Origin: an uncultured Algibacter sp.
GTDB lineage: Bacteria; Bacteroidota; Bacteroidia; Flavobacteriales; Flavobacteriaceae
NCBI GenBank assembly: GCA_937958265.1
Contig: CALGNX010000018.1
Coordinates: forward strand, 43,311-107,310
DNA length: 64,000 bases
Direction of reading: 5' to 3'
Shown here: positions 30,265 to 50,090 of the stretch, in pieces
Layout: each line of letters starts with the position of its first letter
Numbering within the stretch: the stretch's first letter is position 1
Notes under the pieces: generated by a model
Told to the model about the DNA's origin: nothing
Seen by the model: the letters and a program-made list of their open reading frames with translations, nothing else
Database searches by the model: none
Program-made: the position numbers and the translations under genes

Positions 30265-30338
30265 TCCTTCTTAGCTCAGTTGGTTAGAGCATCTGACTGT
30301 TAATCAGAGGGTCCTTGGTTCGAGCCCAAGAGAAGGAG
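30265..30338 (+). tRNA. tRNA-Asn (GTT)
   Basis: Cloverleaf: acceptor TCCTTCT/AGAAGGA, anticodon loop CTGACTGTTAATCAG, T-loop GGTTCGAGCC. Confidence 0.95.
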
Positions 30339-30339
30339 C
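30295..30339 (+). repeat. attL core: 45-bp direct repeat within tRNA-Asn 3' half
   Basis: GACTGTTAATCAGAGGGTCCTTGGTTCGAGCCCAAGAGAAGGAGC identical to 50046-50090. Confidence 0.95.
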
Positions 30340-30386: not shown

Positions 30387-30414
30387 CTCAGGTTAAACAT
30401 AGGTTAAACATTTT
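30387..30414 (+). repeat. Left subterminal direct repeat (candidate integrase arm sites)
   Basis: CTCAGGTTAAACATAGGTTAAACATTTT, identical to 49909-49936; contains tandem GGTTAAACAT. Confidence 0.85.
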
Positions 30415-32715: not shown

Positions 32716-33948
32716 ATGGCAAGTATCAAGATATTACTAAGAAACAAAGCAAATAAGGAAGGTCAGTATCCAGTAGTACTTAAAATCATCAAGGACAGAC
32801 AAATTAAGGTCATTACACTTGGAATTAGTTGTTTGAAGAAGGATTGGGATAAAGCAAATACTCGGTTTAAAAAGAGTCAGAGCAATTATATGCAACGTAA
32901 TAGAGCTCTACTTAAAAAGAAAGAAGAAGCACTAAAGATTATAGATGACTTTTTTCTTGAAGGTATTGACTTTACTCTTAATCAGTTTGAAGACAAGTTT
33001 AGAGGGGGAAAATCATCAAAAGTTACTGTGTCTGAATTCTGGAAAGAAAAAGTGTCAGATTTAAACAGAGCTGGCAGAACAGGAAATGCAAGAGCATACA
33101 AGGATGTTTATAATTCATTTTTCAAGTTCCACAAAAACAAAAATTTAGTGTTTAGAGAAATCACACCTACTTTGCTTGATAAATATGAGACATATTTAAG
33201 AAGTAAAAATAATTCTGATGGAGGTATTGGAGTAAAGATGCGTGAAATAAGAGCGTTATTTAATGATGCTATTAAGAAAGGTGTAGTAGATGAAAAGTAT
33301 TATCCTTTTAAGATATATAAAGTATCAAAGCTAAAAGGGAAAGGACTTAAAAAAGCTTTAACACGAGATGAAATGAAACTTATGGAAGCACTTAATATAG
33401 AGGAAAACCCACACCTTATTGATACCAAAAACTATATGCTATTTAGCTATTACATGGGTGGGATGAACTTTGTTGATATGATGAAACTAAAATGGGAGAA
33501 CATTCAAGGAGATAGAGTTTTATATATCCGTTCTAAAACCAAAGGAAGATTCTCTGTAAAAATGTTAGAGCCAGTTAAGCAAATTATAGCTTACTATAAA
33601 ACTCAAGTAAGACCAACAGATTATGTATTCCCAATCTTGTTGAAAGAGAACCTAACACCAATGCAGATAGAGAACAGAAAACACAAGACCTTAAGTAGGT
33701 TTAATAAGCAACTTAAAGAGATAGCCAAAATTCAAGGGGTACAGCAAAACGTAACTTCTTATGTGATAAGACACAGTTTTGCAACAAATTTAAAGTTTGC
33801 AGGGATTTCAACAGACTTAATTGGAGAATCTATGGGACATCATGATGTTAGTGTAACTAAAGCGTACCTAAAAGAATTTGATGATGATGTTATAGATGAT
33901 GCAATGAGTAAACTACTTGAAGAGCCTAAGCTGAAATATGCATCTTAA
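32716..33948 (+). CDS. Tyrosine-type site-specific recombinase (integrase)
   Basis: Arm-binding/SAM-like N-terminus, catalytic R-K-HxxR-H-Y pattern (YVIRHSFATNLKFAGISTDLIGESMGHHDVSVTKAYLKEF). Confidence 0.95.
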   Translation: MASIKILLRNKANKEGQYPVVLKIIKDRQIKVITLGISCLKKDWDKANTRFKKSQSNYMQRNRALLKKKEEALKIIDDFFLEGIDFTLNQFEDKFRGGKSSKVTVSEFWKEKVSDLNRAGRTGNARAYKDVYNSFFKFHKNKNLVFREITPTLLDKYETYLRSKNNSDGGIGVKMREIRALFNDAIKKGVVDEKYYPFKIYKVSKLKGKGLKKALTRDEMKLMEALNIEENPHLIDTKNYMLFSYYMGGMNFVDMMKLKWENIQGDRVLYIRSKTKGRFSVKMLEPVKQIIAYYKTQVRPTDYVFPILLKENLTPMQIENRKHKTLSRFNKQLKEIAKIQGVQQNVTSYVIRHSFATNLKFAGISTDLIGESMGHHDVSVTKAYLKEFDDDVIDDAMSKLLEEPKLKYAS

Positions 33949-36117: not shown

Positions 36118-37446
36118 ATGACGAATCAAAGACCAAATCAGATAAGATTGTTTACCGAAGAGTTTAGAGCAATAAATTCCGCAGATATAATCATTGATGG
36201 AATTACTGTTGTTTCAGGGGAGAATGGATGTGGAAAGAGTACATTGTCTAAATTACTTTATTATTCATATAAAACTATGTCTAATTATGATGTACTTGTT
36301 GCTGAGGCTTTAAGTTCTGAGTTGTCAAGTGTTGAAAGGTTTGTAGATATAGCTTTAAGAGGTTTGACAAATAGGAGTCTTAAGAGAAATGACCGTTTAG
36401 AATTATATCAAGATTTTATGACGCTTAAAAGCGAAGTGAATTACGGAGATGTTAATTCTAATTCATTGACAGATTGGTTGAATTTAATTGAGAGAATTCG
36501 ATTAGCTCTCACTCTTTCTCCTAGTGATAATAGCTATAGCAAGCGATTAGACTATATAGCGAGAGATATTGTAGGAGATAGTTATGATGAAGAGAGGGGG
36601 GGGAAGCCATTTGAATTAATAAATAAACATATTAATTCTTTATTTAAAAAGGCATTTGGCTTAATGAAATCTCGAACAACAAATTTGTTTAAAGAAGGGT
36701 TAAAAGAGGTCTTTCATGATGAAAAACTTCCAACTGTTTTTAAAGTTTACGAATTTGGAGAGGAAATAGTATCATTGTCAAAAAACAGCTTGTCAATTCC
36801 ATATTCTATTCAACAAGTTATTTATATAGATACTCCAATGATGATTGGAATTGATACTTTTGAAGATAATCATTGGGATGATTTGAATAGCAAATTAAGG
36901 AAAAAGGGAGGGAATTCTTTTACAGAGTTTTCCAAATTGATAGCTGAGGATATAATTCAAGGAGATGCTTCTCATGATGAATCAATTCTTGGTTTAAGTG
37001 ATTTTGTATTTAAACGTTCTGATGGAGAAACTTTTAATTTGTTAGATTGTGCAACAGGAGTGAAGTCATTTAGTATACTTCAAATTTTATTAAAGAATGG
37101 TTCAATTAATGATAAGACACTGCTAATACTTGATGAACCAGAAACTCATTTGCATCCTCAATGGATTATTGAGTATGCTAGATTAATAGTTTTATTAAAT
37201 AAATATGTCGGGGTTAAATTCTTTATTGCTAGTCACAACCCTGATATGGTAAGTGCAATTAGGATTATTTCTGAAAAAGAGAGAATATTGGATAATTTAA
37301 ACTTTTACATTGCAGATAAAAGTAGCTCTGATGAGTATAGTTATAATTACCATAATTTGGGTACTGAAATAGACCCTGTATTTGACTCTTTTAATATTGC
37401 GTTAGATAGAATGCATTTTTATGGAGAGGAGAGCGATGAGTTATAA
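36118..37446 (+). CDS. AAA/ABC-type ATPase (putative defence ATPase)
   Basis: Walker A SGENGCGKST; Walker B LLILDEPETHLHPQW; H-loop FFIASHNPDMV. Confidence 0.85.
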   Translation: MTNQRPNQIRLFTEEFRAINSADIIIDGITVVSGENGCGKSTLSKLLYYSYKTMSNYDVLVAEALSSELSSVERFVDIALRGLTNRSLKRNDRLELYQDFMTLKSEVNYGDVNSNSLTDWLNLIERIRLALTLSPSDNSYSKRLDYIARDIVGDSYDEERGGKPFELINKHINSLFKKAFGLMKSRTTNLFKEGLKEVFHDEKLPTVFKVYEFGEEIVSLSKNSLSIPYSIQQVIYIDTPMMIGIDTFEDNHWDDLNSKLRKKGGNSFTEFSKLIAEDIIQGDASHDESILGLSDFVFKRSDGETFNLLDCATGVKSFSILQILLKNGSINDKTLLILDEPETHLHPQWIIEYARLIVLLNKYVGVKFFIASHNPDMVSAIRIISEKERILDNLNFYIADKSSSDEYSYNYHNLGTEIDPVFDSFNIALDRMHFYGEESDEL

Positions 37447-37957
37447 GTATTCAGAGCCTTTAACAAAAAGTTTAAATGTTTTATCTAATTGTAATGCTTC
37501 TATCAAAGATTTTGAAGATATATTAAAAACAGAAGGGTGTGATGTCTTACCATCACCTTTCAATGGTGAAAATATTGAAGTTGTTGATGGAGATGAATTA
37601 GAGGCTTGTTGTTCTGTTATTACAGGTAGAGGATTAGGTAATAAAAATAAGTCTGTAGATGTTATATTCGGTGTGCAAGACGATTCTGATTCGAAATTAA
37701 CTAGCTTTGTTTTTGTGGAATTAAAATTCAGGAGTAAGACATTTACTAAATTAGATAAAGAAAGTTTAGTTGATAAAGTTAAATGTTCATCTACCTTAAC
37801 TGGTACTAATGGAAAAATGTATACTTACCATTTTATTGTATTTAGTAAAAAAAAACAAAAGTGGGGGAGACATTATTTATTTCGAACTAACCCAATCTTA
37901 AATAGTTCATTTAAGGCAATAGATATAGAAAAGTTATATAATTTGTTCTTTACTTAG
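37436..37957 (+). CDS. Small PD-(D/E)XK-like protein paired with upstream ATPase
   Basis: SVDVIFGVQDDSDSKLTSFVFVELKFR (D...ExK pattern); internal ATG at 37436 overlaps ATPase stop. Confidence 0.5.
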   Translation: MSYKYSEPLTKSLNVLSNCNASIKDFEDILKTEGCDVLPSPFNGENIEVVDGDELEACCSVITGRGLGNKNKSVDVIFGVQDDSDSKLTSFVFVELKFRSKTFTKLDKESLVDKVKCSSTLTGTNGKMYTYHFIVFSKKKQKWGRHYLFRTNPILNSSFKAIDIEKLYNLFFT

Positions 37958-37978: not shown

Positions 37979-38701
37979 CTATAAACTATATTTAATAGGG
38001 TTAGCAGCTCCTTTTTTCTTGGTATGAGCAATAGACTTATTGATGTACAATTCTCTAACATCATCACTTGCCACAGCACCATTAAAACCCCATCTGTTTT
38101 GTCTCTTTGCATTTGGAATATGAACTGGGTACCATTCTTCTATATGAAAGACCTCTATTACTATTCCTGAGTATTCAGCAAGTGCATATTCTACAGTATT
38201 TCTTCTATGTTCTCCTACTATCCAAGCCTGTTTAGTTGCTTGGTAAATAGCATCACTAGAGTTACCTCTGTTATACTTTTTGTTAATATTAATAATAATT
38301 GCAGAATGTTCAAGTTTATCTAGAGGTTGTGCATTATGCAACCTTATTATTTCATCAGTTGTCATAAGACCTTTAAATCCTACATGATGACCTTCAACAA
38401 TATTAGATAAGTTTAGACCAATATAATTTCCAAAATCCATTAAAGATGCTTCTACTTCAAATGCTTCAGACTCTTTTAAACCGTGTCTTATTATGATATG
38501 ACCAACTTCTAGATTTTTACTAATAATATCTCTAATTGTATCTAATTTTAGACTAGAGTCTTCGTATTGAATAGCGCAATGTTTATGATTAAAAACTCTG
38601 TTCCCAACTCCTTTGCCAATGTAAAAGGGAGTATTGTCTACAGGGTTTATTAATGCGTAAACATAGTATTCTAGTAACTCTACTGTTTTATTATCAAACA
38701 T
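37979..38701 (-). CDS. GIY-YIG (LEM-3-like) nuclease family protein
   Basis: YYVYALINPVDNTPFYIGKGVGNRVFNH; LHNAQPLDKLEHSAIIININK... Confidence 0.75.
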   Translation of the reverse strand: MFDNKTVELLEYYVYALINPVDNTPFYIGKGVGNRVFNHKHCAIQYEDSSLKLDTIRDIISKNLEVGHIIIRHGLKESEAFEVEASLMDFGNYIGLNLSNIVEGHHVGFKGLMTTDEIIRLHNAQPLDKLEHSAIIININKKYNRGNSSDAIYQATKQAWIVGEHRRNTVEYALAEYSGIVIEVFHIEEWYPVHIPNAKRQNRWGFNGAVASDDVRELYINKSIAHTKKKGAANPIKYSL

Positions 38702-39640
38702 TTATTCTTCAAAATAATCTAAGTCAATCTTCTTTATAATTATGGTGTTATCTTCTTGTACACCCAAATTATATTCTATAGCAAGTTTTGATAACTCTTG
38801 ACCATCTATTAAAATAATTTTTTGTTGTTTACTGTCTTGAGCTGTTCTTGTAGCACTTTCTGAAAACCTAGAAGTAGTTAAAAACACTCCTTTATTTACT
38901 CCTTGAAGAGCTAATGAGCCAATAAAGTTTCTTATATCAGGAGAACCTACAGTTCCAGTAGTGAAGCGTTTTGCCTGTATATATACACTCTCTAAACCTA
39001 ATCTGTCTTGATAGATAATACCATCTATACCATTATCTCCTGTTCCTCCTGTAACTTTACCTGAATCTTCTCTAAATTCACCATATCCCATTTTTTGCAA
39101 TAATGAAATTACGAATCCCTCAAAGTATCCAAATGTATTTTCTTTCAGCTTATCTAATACTTCAGTAGCTAACTGTTTATTTAATTGAGTAACTGTACTA
39201 GCTAGAATTTCTTCAGGGGTTTTACTAGTTGTGTCTTTAGTTAAAGTAGTGTCTAAGGTATCATTTTGGTCTTGGTTAAATGTGTTAGTCCATTCTTTAT
39301 ATTTAGGCATCTTTTTTAGATGCTTTATTCTTAAATCTGTAGGACTAGTTTTTAAGTAGTCCTTACCAAAATCTGTGATTTGGTATACACCTCTACTAGG
39401 GTAATGAAGTAACCCTGCGTTTTTTAAATAGCTTCTTGTCCAACCTACACGATTTCTAAATAGTCCCATTTGACCACTAGGAACTTTAATTTTTAAATGG
39501 TCTTGAGTTAAATTAAAATGACTAGAAAGTAAAGCCATTACATCATTAAGTGATTTAGGCTGACCATCTGCTAATAATTCAAGCATTGGAAGCATTATTG
39601 TTTGAAAATCTGGTATTTGTGTTTTTAAATCTGTACTCAT
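38702..39640 (-). CDS. Mrr-like restriction endonuclease
   Basis: Winged-helix Mrr N-terminus; catalytic DNGIDGIIYQDRLGLESVYIQAKRF. Confidence 0.88.
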   Translation of the reverse strand: MSTDLKTQIPDFQTIMLPMLELLADGQPKSLNDVMALLSSHFNLTQDHLKIKVPSGQMGLFRNRVGWTRSYLKNAGLLHYPSRGVYQITDFGKDYLKTSPTDLRIKHLKKMPKYKEWTNTFNQDQNDTLDTTLTKDTTSKTPEEILASTVTQLNKQLATEVLDKLKENTFGYFEGFVISLLQKMGYGEFREDSGKVTGGTGDNGIDGIIYQDRLGLESVYIQAKRFTTGTVGSPDIRNFIGSLALQGVNKGVFLTTSRFSESATRTAQDSKQQKIILIDGQELSKLAIEYNLGVQEDNTIIIKKIDLDYFEE

Positions 39641-39641
39641 T

Positions 39642-42320
39642 TTATAATCCTTTTAAAACCTCAATAACACTATGAGCTGTATATGTGTTTTCAACTTTTT
39701 GACTTTGGAAAACCATAAAATACTTATACTTTTCTCCTGCTAATTTTTCCCAAGTTTTACCTAAAATATTTTTACTTCTACTATCTTCATTTACCCTATC
39801 ATCTCCTTTAGTTTCAAGTAAAATAACATTTCCTTTTTTTGTATAAAGGATAAAATCTGGATAGTGATTAGAGCTGTAACCATTTAAAGCGTAACCTTTA
39901 CCTCTCTCAAAGTTTCTATGCCAAAACACTATATTATCTAATGAAGCAACTTCTAAAATCATAGATTGCTCATAGTTATTCATTTTCCCTTCCCTTTCAT
40001 AAAGCGATTTGTTAATATTAGTACTTAGACTTAGAGGTGTAATCTTATCTGGAAAGGCAAAACTGTCTTTCACTATAATTTTGTTACTATCAATAAGTAC
40101 CTTAAACCGTTCTTTTGCATAGGTGCTTGATAGTTGGTTGATTTTATCTTTAATTCGTTTTACGTAGATAAAATCATTTTCAACGATATCTCTAATCTGG
40201 TCATTGGTAAGGTTGTCAAAAACTCTATTTACATACTTTTTTAGTTCTTGCTCCTTTATTGGTGTCATGTCTCCTAATTTGGAAACAACGATGTTACTTA
40301 TTTGATTTATTTGAGATTCTTTAGGTGTAGATAATATGTTATCTATTAGAATATCTTTTGCTCTTTTATTTATATTTTTTACTGTAGCAGTTCCCTTAGT
40401 TTCATCAAAATCTACAGCAATAATATCTTTAGAAATTTCATCAAAGGTTACCTCTGTATTGTACTTAGATAATTTAAACCCATCTAACAAACTGTTTTTG
40501 TGTAGTAATTGCCACTCTTCATTAAGTTCTGGAAATAAACCACTTTGTAAATCGTCTTTTTTCTCTATAAAGAATTGAGGAAGTTTTATGCTTTTTGCTT
40601 TTTCTTGATACCCTTCTATAATAGAGTAATGTTTGGGTACTGTTTTCATAACTTCTGTAAATATGGAGGTGGTTTCATCTATTTCTAACTCATTTACTTT
40701 CTGCTCAAATGCTGCTCCTTGTTGCTCTGCTTTTTTTGTAATACTACTTAGAAGAGGGTTGCTTTGCTCTATATTCTCTAGTGTAACTTCCTCGTTAGGA
40801 TTATACTGTATATCTGCAACATTAAAATCTTCATCTGATTTTGGCGTGTTATCAGGTTTTGACTCTTCTTGTTCAAATAAATTTTGTGTTAAAACCTCAT
40901 TTGGAGTTAGCTGTTCTTCTGGTTGCTCTTCTGCATAATAATCATCTTTACTAAACCCTGATTCTTGTAAGCCTTTTACAATATTTTCTAATGTGTCATT
41001 AAACTTTGAAGAAGCAGTAAGAACAAAAGACATATTTAATAATGCATTTTGATGCTTAACTACATAAGGCTGTCTTAAAACTCGACCTAAAATTTGTTCT
41101 ACTTCTACAGCAGAAGATTTATCTGCCAAGGATGCTAGAATATAGGCATTAGGGCAATCCCAACCTTCTTTTAAGGCATTTACTGTAATAATATACCTTA
41201 CTTTGCAGTCTTTAGCCATTAGGTTTATCCCTTTAAGCTCATCTATACCACTAGTTTTAATTTTTATTTGTTCTTCAGGTATTTGAAGCTTAACTAACTG
41301 TTCTTTTATTTTTTGAAAAGTAGTATTGTTTTTCCCTTTTATGTTAGATTGTGCCTGAAACAAAATAATAGGTCTTATGTATTTACCTGTTATTTTCTCT
41401 TCTTCTTTGGCTATAAGCTCTAGCTTTCTTTGTAAGTGTAAAGCAGAGGTAATCACTTCTTCTTTTTTATGATGGTTGTATACTACAACAGGTAGCTTAA
41501 CCATGTGTTCTTTTTTAAGAGCTAAAGCATTTACATAAGAAATTATATTACTGTTTTCTTTTGGTGTAGCTGTTAAGTCAAGAACTAAAGAAGGGTTTAG
41601 GTTATTAAGCATTTCAACACTTAAATCACTTTCTGCATTATGACTTTCATCTACAACAACAATAGGGTTTAAACTTCTAATTACATTTATTAAAGCAGTT
41701 TCGTCAGTATCTGGAATAACTAAATCTTTATCTACAATGGTATTTCTAAAAGACTCTAAAGCACCATTTTCTTGATATACTTTTCTATCATCCTTTTTTC
41801 TGCTATTTATACGTAAACTACTAAAGTTAAACACAAAAATATTTAGTTGTTCTGTTACAGAAGTAGGGTTGAAATTTGCACCTTGTAATAATTGGTCTTT
41901 TTCATAAACTTCAACTCTATTACCAAATAGAGTATTTAGCTTTTCTCTGTAAGGATGATTAGGGTTTGAGAGATTATTTACAGTTTGTTGCAGTAAGTTA
42001 GACCAAGGAACTAACCAAACTACAGCTTTAGCATTCCCTTTGTTAAAATTCTTATTAATGCTATGTAATGCATTTACAGCTATAAATGTTTTACCTCCAG
42101 CAGTAGGCACTTTTATAGCAATATGAACAGCATTAGGAATATTATCCTTGTAAGGTTGCATACCTTCAAAAGAACCATCTAATTGTGGTGTATAGGGCAT
42201 ACCTAATTTATCTTCCCAATATTGGTTGTATGCTTTTGCAGGACTAGGTTGCTTTTGGGTGTACTCCAAAAACCTTTCTAAGTCTTTAATTACTGCTTGT
42301 TGATATGGTTTTAATTCCAT
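39642..42320 (-). CDS. res: Type III restriction enzyme Res subunit (DEAD/DEAH helicase + PD-(D/E)XK C-terminus)
   Basis: VPTAGGKTF, VVDESHNAESD, LDLTATP, EQILGRVLRQ; C-terminal YPDFILYTKKGNVILLETKGDD. Confidence 0.9.
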   Translation of the reverse strand: MELKPYQQAVIKDLERFLEYTQKQPSPAKAYNQYWEDKLGMPYTPQLDGSFEGMQPYKDNIPNAVHIAIKVPTAGGKTFIAVNALHSINKNFNKGNAKAVVWLVPWSNLLQQTVNNLSNPNHPYREKLNTLFGNRVEVYEKDQLLQGANFNPTSVTEQLNIFVFNFSSLRINSRKKDDRKVYQENGALESFRNTIVDKDLVIPDTDETALINVIRSLNPIVVVDESHNAESDLSVEMLNNLNPSLVLDLTATPKENSNIISYVNALALKKEHMVKLPVVVYNHHKKEEVITSALHLQRKLELIAKEEEKITGKYIRPIILFQAQSNIKGKNNTTFQKIKEQLVKLQIPEEQIKIKTSGIDELKGINLMAKDCKVRYIITVNALKEGWDCPNAYILASLADKSSAVEVEQILGRVLRQPYVVKHQNALLNMSFVLTASSKFNDTLENIVKGLQESGFSKDDYYAEEQPEEQLTPNEVLTQNLFEQEESKPDNTPKSDEDFNVADIQYNPNEEVTLENIEQSNPLLSSITKKAEQQGAAFEQKVNELEIDETTSIFTEVMKTVPKHYSIIEGYQEKAKSIKLPQFFIEKKDDLQSGLFPELNEEWQLLHKNSLLDGFKLSKYNTEVTFDEISKDIIAVDFDETKGTATVKNINKRAKDILIDNILSTPKESQINQISNIVVSKLGDMTPIKEQELKKYVNRVFDNLTNDQIRDIVENDFIYVKRIKDKINQLSSTYAKERFKVLIDSNKIIVKDSFAFPDKITPLSLSTNINKSLYEREGKMNNYEQSMILEVASLDNIVFWHRNFERGKGYALNGYSSNHYPDFILYTKKGNVILLETKGDDRVNEDSRSKNILGKTWEKLAGEKYKYFMVFQSQKVENTYTAHSVIEVLKGL

Positions 42321-42404
42321 TTTTTATGTTTTTTCTAAACTCAGAATATTAACAAAATTGTTAAAAACTTGTTTATAATATAAATTTAGCTATATATTTG
42401 CAAC

Positions 42405-42470
42405 GTGTTCATCCTACCATATGGAGGAAGGAAATCGAGAAACGCAAGTCTAGATACTATGCGTTTTTTG
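42405..42470 (+). ncRNA. Putative small RNA between res and the BECR-like gene, opposite strand to the operon
   Basis: Bacteroidota-type promoter (TTG 42369-42371, TATATTTG 42393-42400), then AACGCA-agtctagatacta-TGCGTT-TTTTT hairpin terminator (42441-42469). Confidence 0.45.
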
Positions 42471-42473
42471 CAT

Positions 42474-42983
42474 TTATAGAAGCTCCTGTAATCTTCTCTT
42501 ATACTTGTTTTTTATCTTTTTCTTATCTCCACCTCTTAAATAATATGCTGTTAATAGGTAGTAATAAGACTCATTATTAGCATTAACTTTTGGCTCTAAA
42601 ATTATTACATACATTTCATCTTCATCAAAAATGTAGGTTCTCTTACCGTTTTTATCTCTAGAGCTAAATATTAATATGTTGTTTTGTTTCTTTTCTTCTA
42701 TATGGTATTTTAACCAATGTAATCTTTTAGACCTATCCATATCAAAATCTCTTTTTCTGGTAGCCTTATCTGTAATTACTGTAGTTAAATGATGAAAAAG
42801 AATATCCATAGGAATTTCTCCTTCTTTAAAAATTGGTCTTATTAGCTTGCCCTTAAAAGAGAAGTTATTATTGTTTGTAATATCTCTATCAAAAATAGCT
42901 CTTAGAGATTTTTTTCTCTCAGGAATGTTTAAACCTGCAATATCTAATAAGGAATTGTATCTTTTTAATTGGTTTAAAGGCAT
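42474..42983 (-). CDS. BECR-fold/RelE-barnase-like RNase domain protein (putative)
   Basis: C-terminal pattern RTYIFDEDEMYVIILEPKVNANNESYYYLLTAYYLRGGDKKKIKNKYKRR resembling phage barnase-EndoU-ColicinE5/D-RelE nucleases. Confidence 0.5.
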   Translation of the reverse strand: MPLNQLKRYNSLLDIAGLNIPERKKSLRAIFDRDITNNNNFSFKGKLIRPIFKEGEIPMDILFHHLTTVITDKATRKRDFDMDRSKRLHWLKYHIEEKKQNNILIFSSRDKNGKRTYIFDEDEMYVIILEPKVNANNESYYYLLTAYYLRGGDKKKIKNKYKRRLQELL

Positions 42984-42984
42984 A

Positions 42985-43653
42985 CTATCTTAATTCAATA
43001 AAAAATAAGTTAAACTCCTTATCATATGATGTTTGCTGTAAGCTCTGACCTGTATGATACTTTATTTTCTCTATTAGTTTTACCTTTGCAGCTACCTTTG
43101 GAGGGTGATTTAAGTTATAAGATAATGCTCCCATTAAAACATCTGTTATTTGTAAAAGCATGCTCTCATGAGACCTTATGTTTTGTATGTTTCTAAATAC
43201 ACCATACTTGGTATTAAGTATCTCTTTTAACTTCTCTACTTTATAAGCACTTAAATCATCTTTTATATCTAGGTATACGTTGTATGCAAAATTAGATTTG
43301 ATATTATGATTTAATAAGTAGTAATACATCTTATAATAAAATGTGTCAAAATCTTGCTGAAATGTGCCATTGTTAATTTTAGACTTATCTATTACAATAG
43401 CTCTAAACCTTAAATCTGTAGCAAAGAAGTAATCTATAAGTTCTTTGTAAAACTCATATTGAGAATTAGATACATTACTCCACTTTATTTCACCATAAAA
43501 GTTATGCTTCTTTTTTATGGAATCTATTTGTTGTGTATGTAACTTAACTTGGTGGTAAGCACAACTTACATAGCTAAGTAGCATAAATTTTTGATGGTCA
43601 TTTTCTAAATGACAACTTTCATCACAGTAAAGGTTAAATGTTTTTGATGCCAT
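42985..43653 (-). CDS. DUF3800 family protein
   Basis: N-terminal YCDESCHLE, FRAIVIDKS, C-terminal MLLQITDVLMGALSYN. Confidence 0.85.
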   Translation of the reverse strand: MASKTFNLYCDESCHLENDHQKFMLLSYVSCAYHQVKLHTQQIDSIKKKHNFYGEIKWSNVSNSQYEFYKELIDYFFATDLRFRAIVIDKSKINNGTFQQDFDTFYYKMYYYLLNHNIKSNFAYNVYLDIKDDLSAYKVEKLKEILNTKYGVFRNIQNIRSHESMLLQITDVLMGALSYNLNHPPKVAAKVKLIEKIKYHTGQSLQQTSYDKEFNLFFIELR

Positions 43654-43656
43654 ATT

Positions 43657-45234
43657 TTAAAATCTTGTTATGTCTCTAGGTATTTTTTTGAAAACTATAT
43701 GATACTTATCCATTAGCTTTTGGTCTAACAAACATAAATCTGCATAAATAATGTATTGTTGTGCTTTAGTTTTTAAAGTTCTTAAATAGCTTTCATCTAA
43801 TGTGGTTAATCTATCTTTTTCGTAATAGAAATAGTAAGCAGTATCATGTTTAGTGCCTAATAAATAGTTTTCTTCTTGTGCATTAAAAGCTTCTTTGGTT
43901 TCTGTGTACCATACATATTCTTGTATTTTGGTTAAGGGTACATCTTCATTAAGCATTTTGTCGTCTTTAAAGAGTGCTTCTCCTAACTCATAATATGTAA
44001 AATCCCCTCCTGTACCTTCAATAGCTTTTGAGCCTTCTCCATAGCCATTAATAACTCGTTTTACCCTTTCCCCAGTAATAGTATTAGCATAGTCTTCCAT
44101 TTCTATTAAAATAAATTTCCTATTACCACCATCTTCTTTATTAAGGTTTAGAACTGCATGAGCAGTTGTGCCTGAACCTGCAAAAGAGTCAAGGATTATG
44201 GAGTTTTTATCAGCAGTTAAGCTTATTATTCTTTCTATAAGTTTAACAGGTTTTGGGGTTGCAAATAAATCATCATTAAAGATTTGTTTTAAGTCTTTTT
44301 TTGCATCTTGTGTATGTCCAACTTCTGAATATAACCAAGTTGTCAAGGGAGTTATACCATCACTAACTTCACTCAAAAAGAGTTTAGGAGCCCAAATTGA
44401 ATTACCATCTTTTCCAAACCATATTCTATTATCATCTATCAATTCATTTAATTTTTCTTCTGAGTAAAGCCAGCTTCTACCTTTTGGTGGTAAAACAATT
44501 CTTCCAGATGGGCATTTTACTTTATAAACGTTTTTCTCAACTGCTGGACCTACTGAAGGGTTACCTGCTTTCCAATTACCTCTAGGATCTTTGTCAGGAT
44601 TTTTATAGTCTTTATTTTGTTTTTCTGTCCTTTTTAATTTTTTAACTCGATAGATGTCTTTCTTTTTAGAGTAACAAAGAACGAAATCATGATTTGTTGA
44701 AAAATATTTATTTAAGCTAACAGGGGCATAGGCTCTTTGCCATGCAATTGAGGTTACAAAATTCCTGCCTCCAAAAATCTCATCACAAATCAACTTTAAA
44801 TTTGCCTGTTCATTATCATCTATAGAGATGAAAATAGCTCCGTCATCAGCTAATAACTTATGTAATAACTTTAATCTTGGGTACATCATGCATAACCATT
44901 TGTCATGCCTAGATAAATCTTCACTTTCTTTACCTACAACCTGTCCTAACCATTTTTTTAATTTAGGATGGCTTACATTATCATTATATACCCAACCTTC
45001 ATTTCCTGTATTATATGGAGGGTCTATATAGATGCATTTTATTTTACCTTCATATTCTGGTAATAAACTTTTAAGAGCTTCAAGGTTATCTCCATGTATA
45101 ATTTTATTTTCAGAAGTAGCACCTTTACTTTCTTTTCCATTACTAAAAGTATATTGAGGCTCTAGTATTTTATAAGGCACATCTTGGTGATGGTTTATTA
45201 CCTTTTCTTTTCCTATCCAGTTTAATGTTGGCAT
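43657..45234 (-). CDS. mod: Type III DNA-methyltransferase Mod subunit
   Basis: IYIDPPYNTGNEGWVYND, DSFAGSGTTAHAVL. Confidence 0.93.
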   Translation of the reverse strand: MPTLNWIGKEKVINHHQDVPYKILEPQYTFSNGKESKGATSENKIIHGDNLEALKSLLPEYEGKIKCIYIDPPYNTGNEGWVYNDNVSHPKLKKWLGQVVGKESEDLSRHDKWLCMMYPRLKLLHKLLADDGAIFISIDDNEQANLKLICDEIFGGRNFVTSIAWQRAYAPVSLNKYFSTNHDFVLCYSKKKDIYRVKKLKRTEKQNKDYKNPDKDPRGNWKAGNPSVGPAVEKNVYKVKCPSGRIVLPPKGRSWLYSEEKLNELIDDNRIWFGKDGNSIWAPKLFLSEVSDGITPLTTWLYSEVGHTQDAKKDLKQIFNDDLFATPKPVKLIERIISLTADKNSIILDSFAGSGTTAHAVLNLNKEDGGNRKFILIEMEDYANTITGERVKRVINGYGEGSKAIEGTGGDFTYYELGEALFKDDKMLNEDVPLTKIQEYVWYTETKEAFNAQEENYLLGTKHDTAYYFYYEKDRLTTLDESYLRTLKTKAQQYIIYADLCLLDQKLMDKYHIVFKKIPRDITRF

Positions 45235-45238
45235 ATAG

Positions 45239-45532
45239 TTAGTTCTTTACTTCTGTTTTAATTCTTTTTAATGCTAATTTAATGGCATCTATGGCTACAT
45301 CTTCTCCTTGTACATCTTCATATACTTTTTCGCTAAGCCATAGTGTTAAAAGCTTATTGTACTCTATATCTAAAGCCAAAGCCAGTTTTTCTATTTGTTC
45401 TCTTGTAGGTTTTCTGTCTCCTTTTTCAATTTTACTTATTAAAGCAGTATCTACATCTACTTTATAAGCTACCTCTCTTAGGAGTAAACCTTTAGATTCT
45501 CTTTTAGATTTTAATAATTCTGATAGTGTCAT
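45239..45532 (-). CDS. XRE family regulator (restriction-modification controller-like)
   Basis: LLREVAYKVDVDTALISKIEKGDRKPTREQIEKLALAL. Confidence 0.85.
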   Translation of the reverse strand: MTLSELLKSKRESKGLLLREVAYKVDVDTALISKIEKGDRKPTREQIEKLALALDIEYNKLLTLWLSEKVYEDVQGEDVAIDAIKLALKRIKTEVKN

Positions 45533-49510: not shown

Positions 49511-49918
49511 ATGTGTAAATCCTTATTAAAAGAGTTGCGTTTTAAAATTGGAGAACAATATGAACTAAATGAGTTTAATTTAAAGAGTATAGAATCAACT
49601 TTTAGTAATGGTTTGGAGTACGAGAACTATGAATACATAAAAGATGATTTAATAACGGTTTTAGGTTTAGATTTAGTTAGTAAAGTAATTCTACAGTATA
49701 ATGGAGATTTGTTATCAGGGTTTATCTATACTTTAGATGCAAAGGATTGGACAAACTTAATTAGTAAGATAAATAATTATTTACCTGAAATAGGAAAACA
49801 GAGTTTAGAAATAATGCCTGTTAATGTGATATTAGAGTATCATGAAACTTACAATATTAAGCTTTCCATTGAAGTAGGAGATAGTTTGTTTTTTAAGGTT
49901 TGTAAAATCTCAGGTTAA
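49511..49918 (+). CDS. Hypothetical protein
   Basis: ORF at right end of element. Confidence 0.45.
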   Translation: MCKSLLKELRFKIGEQYELNEFNLKSIESTFSNGLEYENYEYIKDDLITVLGLDLVSKVILQYNGDLLSGFIYTLDAKDWTNLISKINNYLPEIGKQSLEIMPVNVILEYHETYNIKLSIEVGDSLFFKVCKISG

Positions 49919-49936
49919 ACATAGGTTAAACATTTT
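49909..49936 (+). repeat. Right subterminal direct repeat (candidate integrase arm sites)
   Basis: Identical 28 bp to 30387-30414. Confidence 0.85.
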
Positions 49937-50045: not shown

Positions 50046-50090
50046 GACTGTTAATCAGAGGGTCCTTGGTTCGAGCCCAAGAGAAGGAGC
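50046..50090 (+). repeat. attR core: 45-bp direct repeat (tRNA-Asn 3' fragment)
   Basis: Identical to 30295-30339. Confidence 0.95.

Follow-up and report, generated by a model that had tools for sequence, protein, structure and literature searches.

Among the described systems closest to the locus studied here, WonAB from the WASA-1 prophage of Vibrio cholerae consists of an OLD-ABC ATPase and a small PD-(D/E)xK protein, where both genes are required and the residues K34, R182, E300 and H333 of the ATPase, as well as K71 of the nuclease, are needed (PMC12137116). The ATPase mutants and the WonB-K71A mutant lose protection, and WonB is lost once WonA is inactivated; the system works by abortive infection, acting after phage DNA replication has started and blocking capsid assembly, and the DNA is not simply degraded (PMC12137116). 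The same paper likens WonAB to PD-T4-4 and groups it with an operon type that Krishnan 2020 described as 'OLD-ABC ATPase + novel REase'; this type is said to include all WonAB homologues and to occur in 0.96% of bacterial genomes, and its exemplar is from Anaerovibrio (PMC12137116). PD-T4-4 is an E. coli pair of an ATPase and a small protein (PMC9519451; domain table in PMC10952713), and the relatives with a tested function, WonAB (PMC12137116) and PD-T4-4 (PMC9519451), are defence systems. The related ATPase systems Septu and PARIS cut tRNA (PMC13096335 and PMC12409363).

The window, which is the whole stretch of 64,000 nucleotides analysed here from an uncultured Algibacter sp., harbors a pair of this kind. 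The OLD/ABC-type ATPase is encoded at 36118-37446 (+ strand, 442 aa), and the small partner gene at 37436-37957 (+ strand, 173 aa) encodes a putative effector nuclease that is PD-(D/E)XK-like; the two genes share 11 nt, and both reading frames were found at the positions, and with the overlap, reported in the initial annotation. The ATG at 37436 is the likely start of the partner and is favoured over an alternative in-frame ATG at 37421, which would give 178 aa, because it is preceded by GGAGAGGAG and because the MKYC... start of relatives falls at this point of the alignment.

The host element of the pair is integrated at tRNA-Asn (30265-30339), measures 19.75 kb and extends from this tRNA gene to 50090. 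Its ends are marked by an exact 45-bp direct repeat, with one copy forming the 3' part of tRNA-Asn (30295-30339, + strand) and the other lying at the far end (50046-50090, + strand), and it carries a tyrosine recombinase/integrase (32716-33948, + strand; Phage_integrase 8.2e-18, Phage_int_SAM_5 1.3e-21) and an excisionase-like gene. The site is empty in three genomes of the same genus, because the terminator that follows 50090 here directly follows tRNA-Asn there. The earlier placement of the pair in a mobile element next to restriction genes is borne out by these ends and by the neighbouring genes. A second exact direct repeat of 28 bp, CTCAGGTTAAACATAGGTTAAACATTTT, was observed near both ends of the element (30387-30414 and 49909-49936), and these copies are possibly arm-binding sites of the integrase. 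Directly downstream of the pair and convergent with it lies a GIY-YIG protein gene (37979-38701, - strand), whose product matches PADLOC PD-T4-3, a named E. coli defence system, at 5.2e-53. It is followed by a gene run on the - strand (38702-45532) with Mrr-like, type III Res, PDC-M04B, PDC-M04A (DUF3800), type III Mod and HTH genes, where the candidate pair PDC-M04AB is placed between the Res and Mod genes of the type III system. On the chromosomes of relatives, the two nearest neighbours of the pair are mostly housekeeping genes, as counted without a background control; association with defence islands is therefore not general and the pair usually travels alone, and its use as a general defence-island marker was not supported.

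The ATPase, a putative sensor/regulator subunit, matched the Pfam families AAA_15 (1.3e-13) and AAA_21 (4.2e-12), and its top PADLOC model was HEC-02A of the candidate system HEC-02 (2.6e-27, 94 bits, with the strongest stretch in the C-terminal half), followed by NsnB and, with weaker scores, PtuA (5e-18), AriA (4e-14) and PD-T4-4_A (1e-13). The AlphaFold2 model of the ATPase, built from 47 aligned sequences, reached a pLDDT of 90, and its nearest PDB folds were retron Eco8, retron-PtuA complexes, Septu PtuA and SMC heads, with E values from 4e-7. Across the 47 aligned relatives the nucleotide-binding motifs are highly conserved: the Walker A GENGCGKST (residues 34-42; 36217-36243, + strand) has G34, N36, G39, K40 and S41 invariant; the degenerate ABC-signature region CATGVKSF (311-318; 37048-37071, + strand) has A312, T313 and G314 invariant and F318 nearly so; the Walker B/D-loop LLILDEPETHLHPQW (335-349; 37120-37164, + strand) has D339, E340, P341, E342, L345, H346, P347 and W349 invariant; and the H-loop His373 (37234-37236, + strand) is invariant as well. 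The family consensus comprises a CATGxKSF signature and DEPExHLHPQW, and the protein carries the Walker A, the degenerate signature, the DEPE Walker B and the H-loop of an OLD-type ABC ATPase; the motifs SGENGCGKST and SHN picked out at the start are both present in the 442-aa reading frame. Past the H-loop, a C-terminal tail (residues 418-436 in the numbering of the window protein; 37369-37425, + strand) is also preserved, with F422, F425 and N426 invariant and I418, I421, S424 and Y435 nearly so among the 47 relatives, and this conserved stretch stops where the nuclease gene starts. By analogy with WonA, the tail is a candidate docking surface for the nuclease.

The partner of the window had no match in Pfam, NCBIfam, PHROGs, PADLOC or PDB sequences, and it did not match a non-nuclease family, a match that would have spoken against the first proposal. 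In an alignment of 66 relatives (~24% alike), its family displays the signature E33-D53-D75-E95xK97-K114, where D75 and K114 never vary (100%), positions 95, 97 and 53 hold E/D, K/R and D/E, respectively, likewise in 100%, and position 33 is E/D in 94%; the D-ExK motif is not a product of chance, because D75, E/D95, K/R97, K114 and D/E53 are kept in every one of these relatives. The catalytic K position holds R in 12 of the 66. The catalytic signature D75...E95-x-K97 lies at 37658-37726 (+ strand), and the motif reported in the initial annotation stands with a trivial correction of its spacing, from D-x18-ExK to D75-x19-E95-x-K97. K114 (37775-37777, + strand) lies in the helix following the catalytic strand and aligns with K80 of the sister nuclease alignment A9 and with the Q111 region of PD-T4-4_B. 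The predicted model is confident (pLDDT 93, pTM 0.89) and has a helix ending at E33, strand 48-51, a helix and strand 76-82 with D75 at its start, followed by strand 89-96 with E95/K97 at its end, the helix with K114 and strand 132-135, and this predicted order of strands and helices fits that expected of a PD-(D/E)XK core. Among the 20 best PDB fold matches of the model, 18 were chains of Mus81-Eme1, Can2, Nt.BspD6I, HamA or XisH, all of them PD-(D/E)XK proteins. None of the PDB fold matches reaches E 0.001, and the folds are for that reason support for a PD-(D/E)XK partner and not proof of it. The PD-(D/E)XK-like character proposed for the partner is supported by the conserved active-site residues and the fitting predicted topology, with best folds that are mostly such nucleases and non-significant.

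A scan of 85,462 GTDB species genomes with the ATPase alignment alone gave 163 relatives, from which 80 loci were kept. A recognisable partner was located directly downstream of the ATPase in 80/80 of these loci, which include close relatives of one another and are not 80 independent cases, in the order ATPase first and small nuclease second; 73 partners have the full motif, and seven are truncated, frameshifted or internally deleted. Where the start of the partner is intact, it lies ~ -50 to +62 nt relative to the ATPase stop. The loci belong mainly to Bacteroidota; the labels WOR-3, Fibrobacter, Lachnospiraceae, Lactobacillales, Erysipelothrix and Succinatimonas each cover a single locus or a small group. 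In searches run at the level of family, order or phylum, ~0.3-0.5% of the genomes carried the pair. Partner-led genome searches never found the nuclease apart from the ATPase. Pairwise distances of ATPases and partners are correlated (Mantel r=0.65, 0/2000 permutations as high), to which shared genome ancestry contributes, and the partner dN/dS was 0.05-0.19 in nine of the ten computable pairs, with the tenth (0.83) involving near-identical sequences with few changes. It is confirmed that the two genes form a real, conserved pair, and the rare co-occurrence that was named with the first proposal as a refuting outcome is not what these 80 loci show.

Some loci of the family differ in the partner. 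Partners of ~210-276 aa with a ~100-aa C-terminal extension past the nuclease core were observed at L071, L073, L075-L077, L082, L084-L086, L088, L089 and L091. The catalytic middle of the nuclease is deleted beside an intact ATPase in L023/L093 (Parabacteroides-type) and L065; the nuclease is frameshifted beside a family ATPase in L038 and L042; and L053 is also listed among the loci with a damaged nuclease (catalytic middle deleted or frameshift) beside a family ATPase. Such damage fits a nuclease that is selected against, and draft-assembly errors may explain some of the cases. The candidate L003 was rejected as a relative, since its match crosses four stop codons and the locus has other long ORFs.

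Searches of mobile DNA returned no match for the partner by tblastn in plasmids and phages, no close relatives in viral contigs and no match of the ATPase alignment of the window clade (A3) to viral contigs, and because A3 is without a match there, phage carriage of the window clade is not supported; the viral contigs yielded only the sister type (A8). Sister pairs were collected from Flavobacteriaceae, two plasmids, one phage record and viral contigs, and their nucleases carry S-x-D...EFKxG...K. In hhalign comparisons, the window nuclease family aligned with the sister nucleases at P 1.6e-6 with D53, D75, E95xK97 and K114 in register (score 44.5, where the highest of 30 column-shuffled controls reached 12.8). 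The window ATPase aligned with the sister ATPase profiles at E 3e-53, along 386 columns that take in the C-terminal tail. By profile alignment, both the ATPase and the partner of the window thus appear related to WonAB/HEC-02-like pairs. In two Flavobacteriaceae (L006, L007) a sister pair sits in the same place, between methionine aminopeptidase-like and methyltransferase-like genes, and this shared place is a possible defence hotspot. The sister pairs of L094-L108, from viral contigs of which many are probably prophages, have a highly conserved nuclease motif, EKSPDALF...YFIEFKEG...DIRxKIHEG, and no PADLOC nuclease model matched the two of these nucleases that were searched.

The pair is probably an anti-phage module, most likely of the abortive-infection type, in which the ATPase would hold and fire the nuclease. 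The ATPase would dimerise as ABC-type ATPases do, and its conserved C-terminal tail may keep the PD-(D/E)XK protein bound, either inactive or stabilised. On infection, a signal read through the variable helical insert or through the ATP-bound state would release or activate the nuclease, which would then cut nucleic acid and halt phage production, and the infected cell would probably pay with its life. What the analysis shows ends with sequence, conservation, predicted fold and context; that the ATPase dimerises and senses infection, that the two proteins bind each other, that the partner is an active nuclease, that the module acts against phage in an abortive mode, and what it cuts (DNA, or tRNA or another RNA) are inferred, the mechanism by analogy with WonAB. 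A costly effector nuclease would fit the family, because some relatives keep the ATPase but lose the nuclease, draft assemblies possibly explaining some of them, and RNA is as plausible a target as DNA, because WonAB does not simply degrade DNA and Septu and PARIS cut tRNA.

It is unlikely that the locus is instead Septu-like, with the ATPase as PtuA and the small protein replacing the HNH protein PtuB as the tRNA/DNA-cutting subunit of a PtuA-type oligomer. The PtuA profiles do match the ATPase at 5e-18, PtuA/retron structures are among its fold matches and an HNH protein accompanies one relative ATPase, encoded on a Vibrio plasmid; however, the top PADLOC match is HEC-02A and not PtuA, what follows the ATPase in the 80 loci is a D/ExK protein and not HNH, and the profile homology of both proteins points to ATPase + PD-(D/E)XK pairs. 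The overlap of the genes and the loci where the ATPase is kept and the nuclease deleted or frameshifted (L023/L093, L038, L042, L065), as expected of a costly nuclease, would also suit an ATPase antitoxin with a nuclease toxin that mainly stabilises the mobile element rather than defending against phage. This reading is improbable, given that most relatives are solitary pairs among chromosomal housekeeping genes, that the function-tested relatives are defence systems (PMC12137116, PMC9519451) and that the element bears other defence genes. Least plausible is a housekeeping pair for DNA repair or recombination, composed of a RecF/SbcCD-like ATPase and a small nuclease: the core of the ATPase is RecF/Rad50-like, but, whatever the rank searched, the pair turned up in far fewer than 1% of the genomes; it is patchy across phyla and, in the window, sits in an integrated element, and this role is accordingly very improbable.

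Compared with the named systems, the window partner matches none of the nuclease profiles HEC-02B, PD-T4-4_B, PtuB and AriB. The HEC-02B profiles (~170 aa) do not match the window nuclease; they touch the L007 partner at 8e-5 and, among 45 relatives of the partner, two, at best 5.8e-4, and they found no match in 289 class-level genomes, where the controls were equally silent. The PD-T4-4 nuclease family (E31-D56-D82-[DE]xK101-Q111) has the same order of conserved residues as the window family, and the hhalign comparison of the two families (P 0.0026, score 25.7, shuffle maximum 19.0) is suggestive of kinship; PD-T4-4_B matched neither the window partner nor its 45 aligned relatives, whereas a true member scores 8e-84 and L128 is a true PD-T4-4 pair. 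With the nuclease profile unmatched and the profile-profile comparison only suggestive, PD-T4-4 was rejected as the home family. Septu (PtuAB) has an OLD/SMC-like ATPase and a nuclease in common with the window pair, but PtuB is an HNH protein, and the window partner gave no HNH match and is a D/ExK, PD-(D/E)XK-like protein instead. PARIS (AriAB) likewise combines an ATPase with a nuclease thought to be held by it, yet AriB is TOPRIM-like and had no match in the window partner, which bears the PD-(D/E)XK-like signature, and the AriA match of the ATPase is the weaker one (4e-14). As to identity with an already named system, the pair has no formal profile match, and its kinship with the named systems is remote.

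As first proposed, an ATPase and a PD-(D/E)XK-like partner make up a two-gene module that is conserved as a pair and lies in a defence-bearing mobile element, and this is supported; calling it an undescribed system was too strong, as the layout is published as WonAB, PD-T4-4 and 'OLD-ABC ATPase + novel REase', and PADLOC has HEC-02A/B. The new part is a divergent, mainly Bacteroidota clade without a name, whose window nuclease matches no Pfam, NCBIfam, PHROGs or PADLOC profile. A tentative and rather doubtful reading is that this clade is a functionally separate system, set off by a trigger of its own and directed at a specific RNA, for example a tRNA, to which the unrecognised window nuclease in the searched libraries, the R at the catalytic K and the ~100-aa extensions may point; if true, it would deserve its own name and not be filed under WonAB or PD-T4-4. 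The class of ABC-ATPase sensor + PD-(D/E)XK nuclease (WonAB, PD-T4-4) is extended to a mainly Bacteroidota clade missed by defence-annotation profiles, the 80 loci and the signature E-D-D-ExK-K are supplied for detecting and mutating the class, and the clade, if functional, would be a Bacteroidota test case for what its nucleases cut. The operon type of Krishnan 2020, as described in PMC12137116, has the same architecture and predicted roles as the window pair. WonAB and the window pair have in common the two-gene layout of OLD-ABC ATPase and small PD-(D/E)xK protein, the ATPase motifs, a distance of 33 residues between the Walker B Glu and the H-loop His (WonA E300/H333, window E340/H373) and a similar rarity (WonAB 0.43% of genomes, window clade ~0.3-0.5%), whereas, from the published residue numbers, the insert differs (K34-E300 of WonA spans 266 residues, K40-E340 of the window 300), as does the N-terminus of the nuclease (WonB K71, window K97). 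Because its ATPase and nuclease profiles align with those of sister pairs, the window pair appears to be a divergent member of the broad OLD-ABC + PD-(D/E)XK class.
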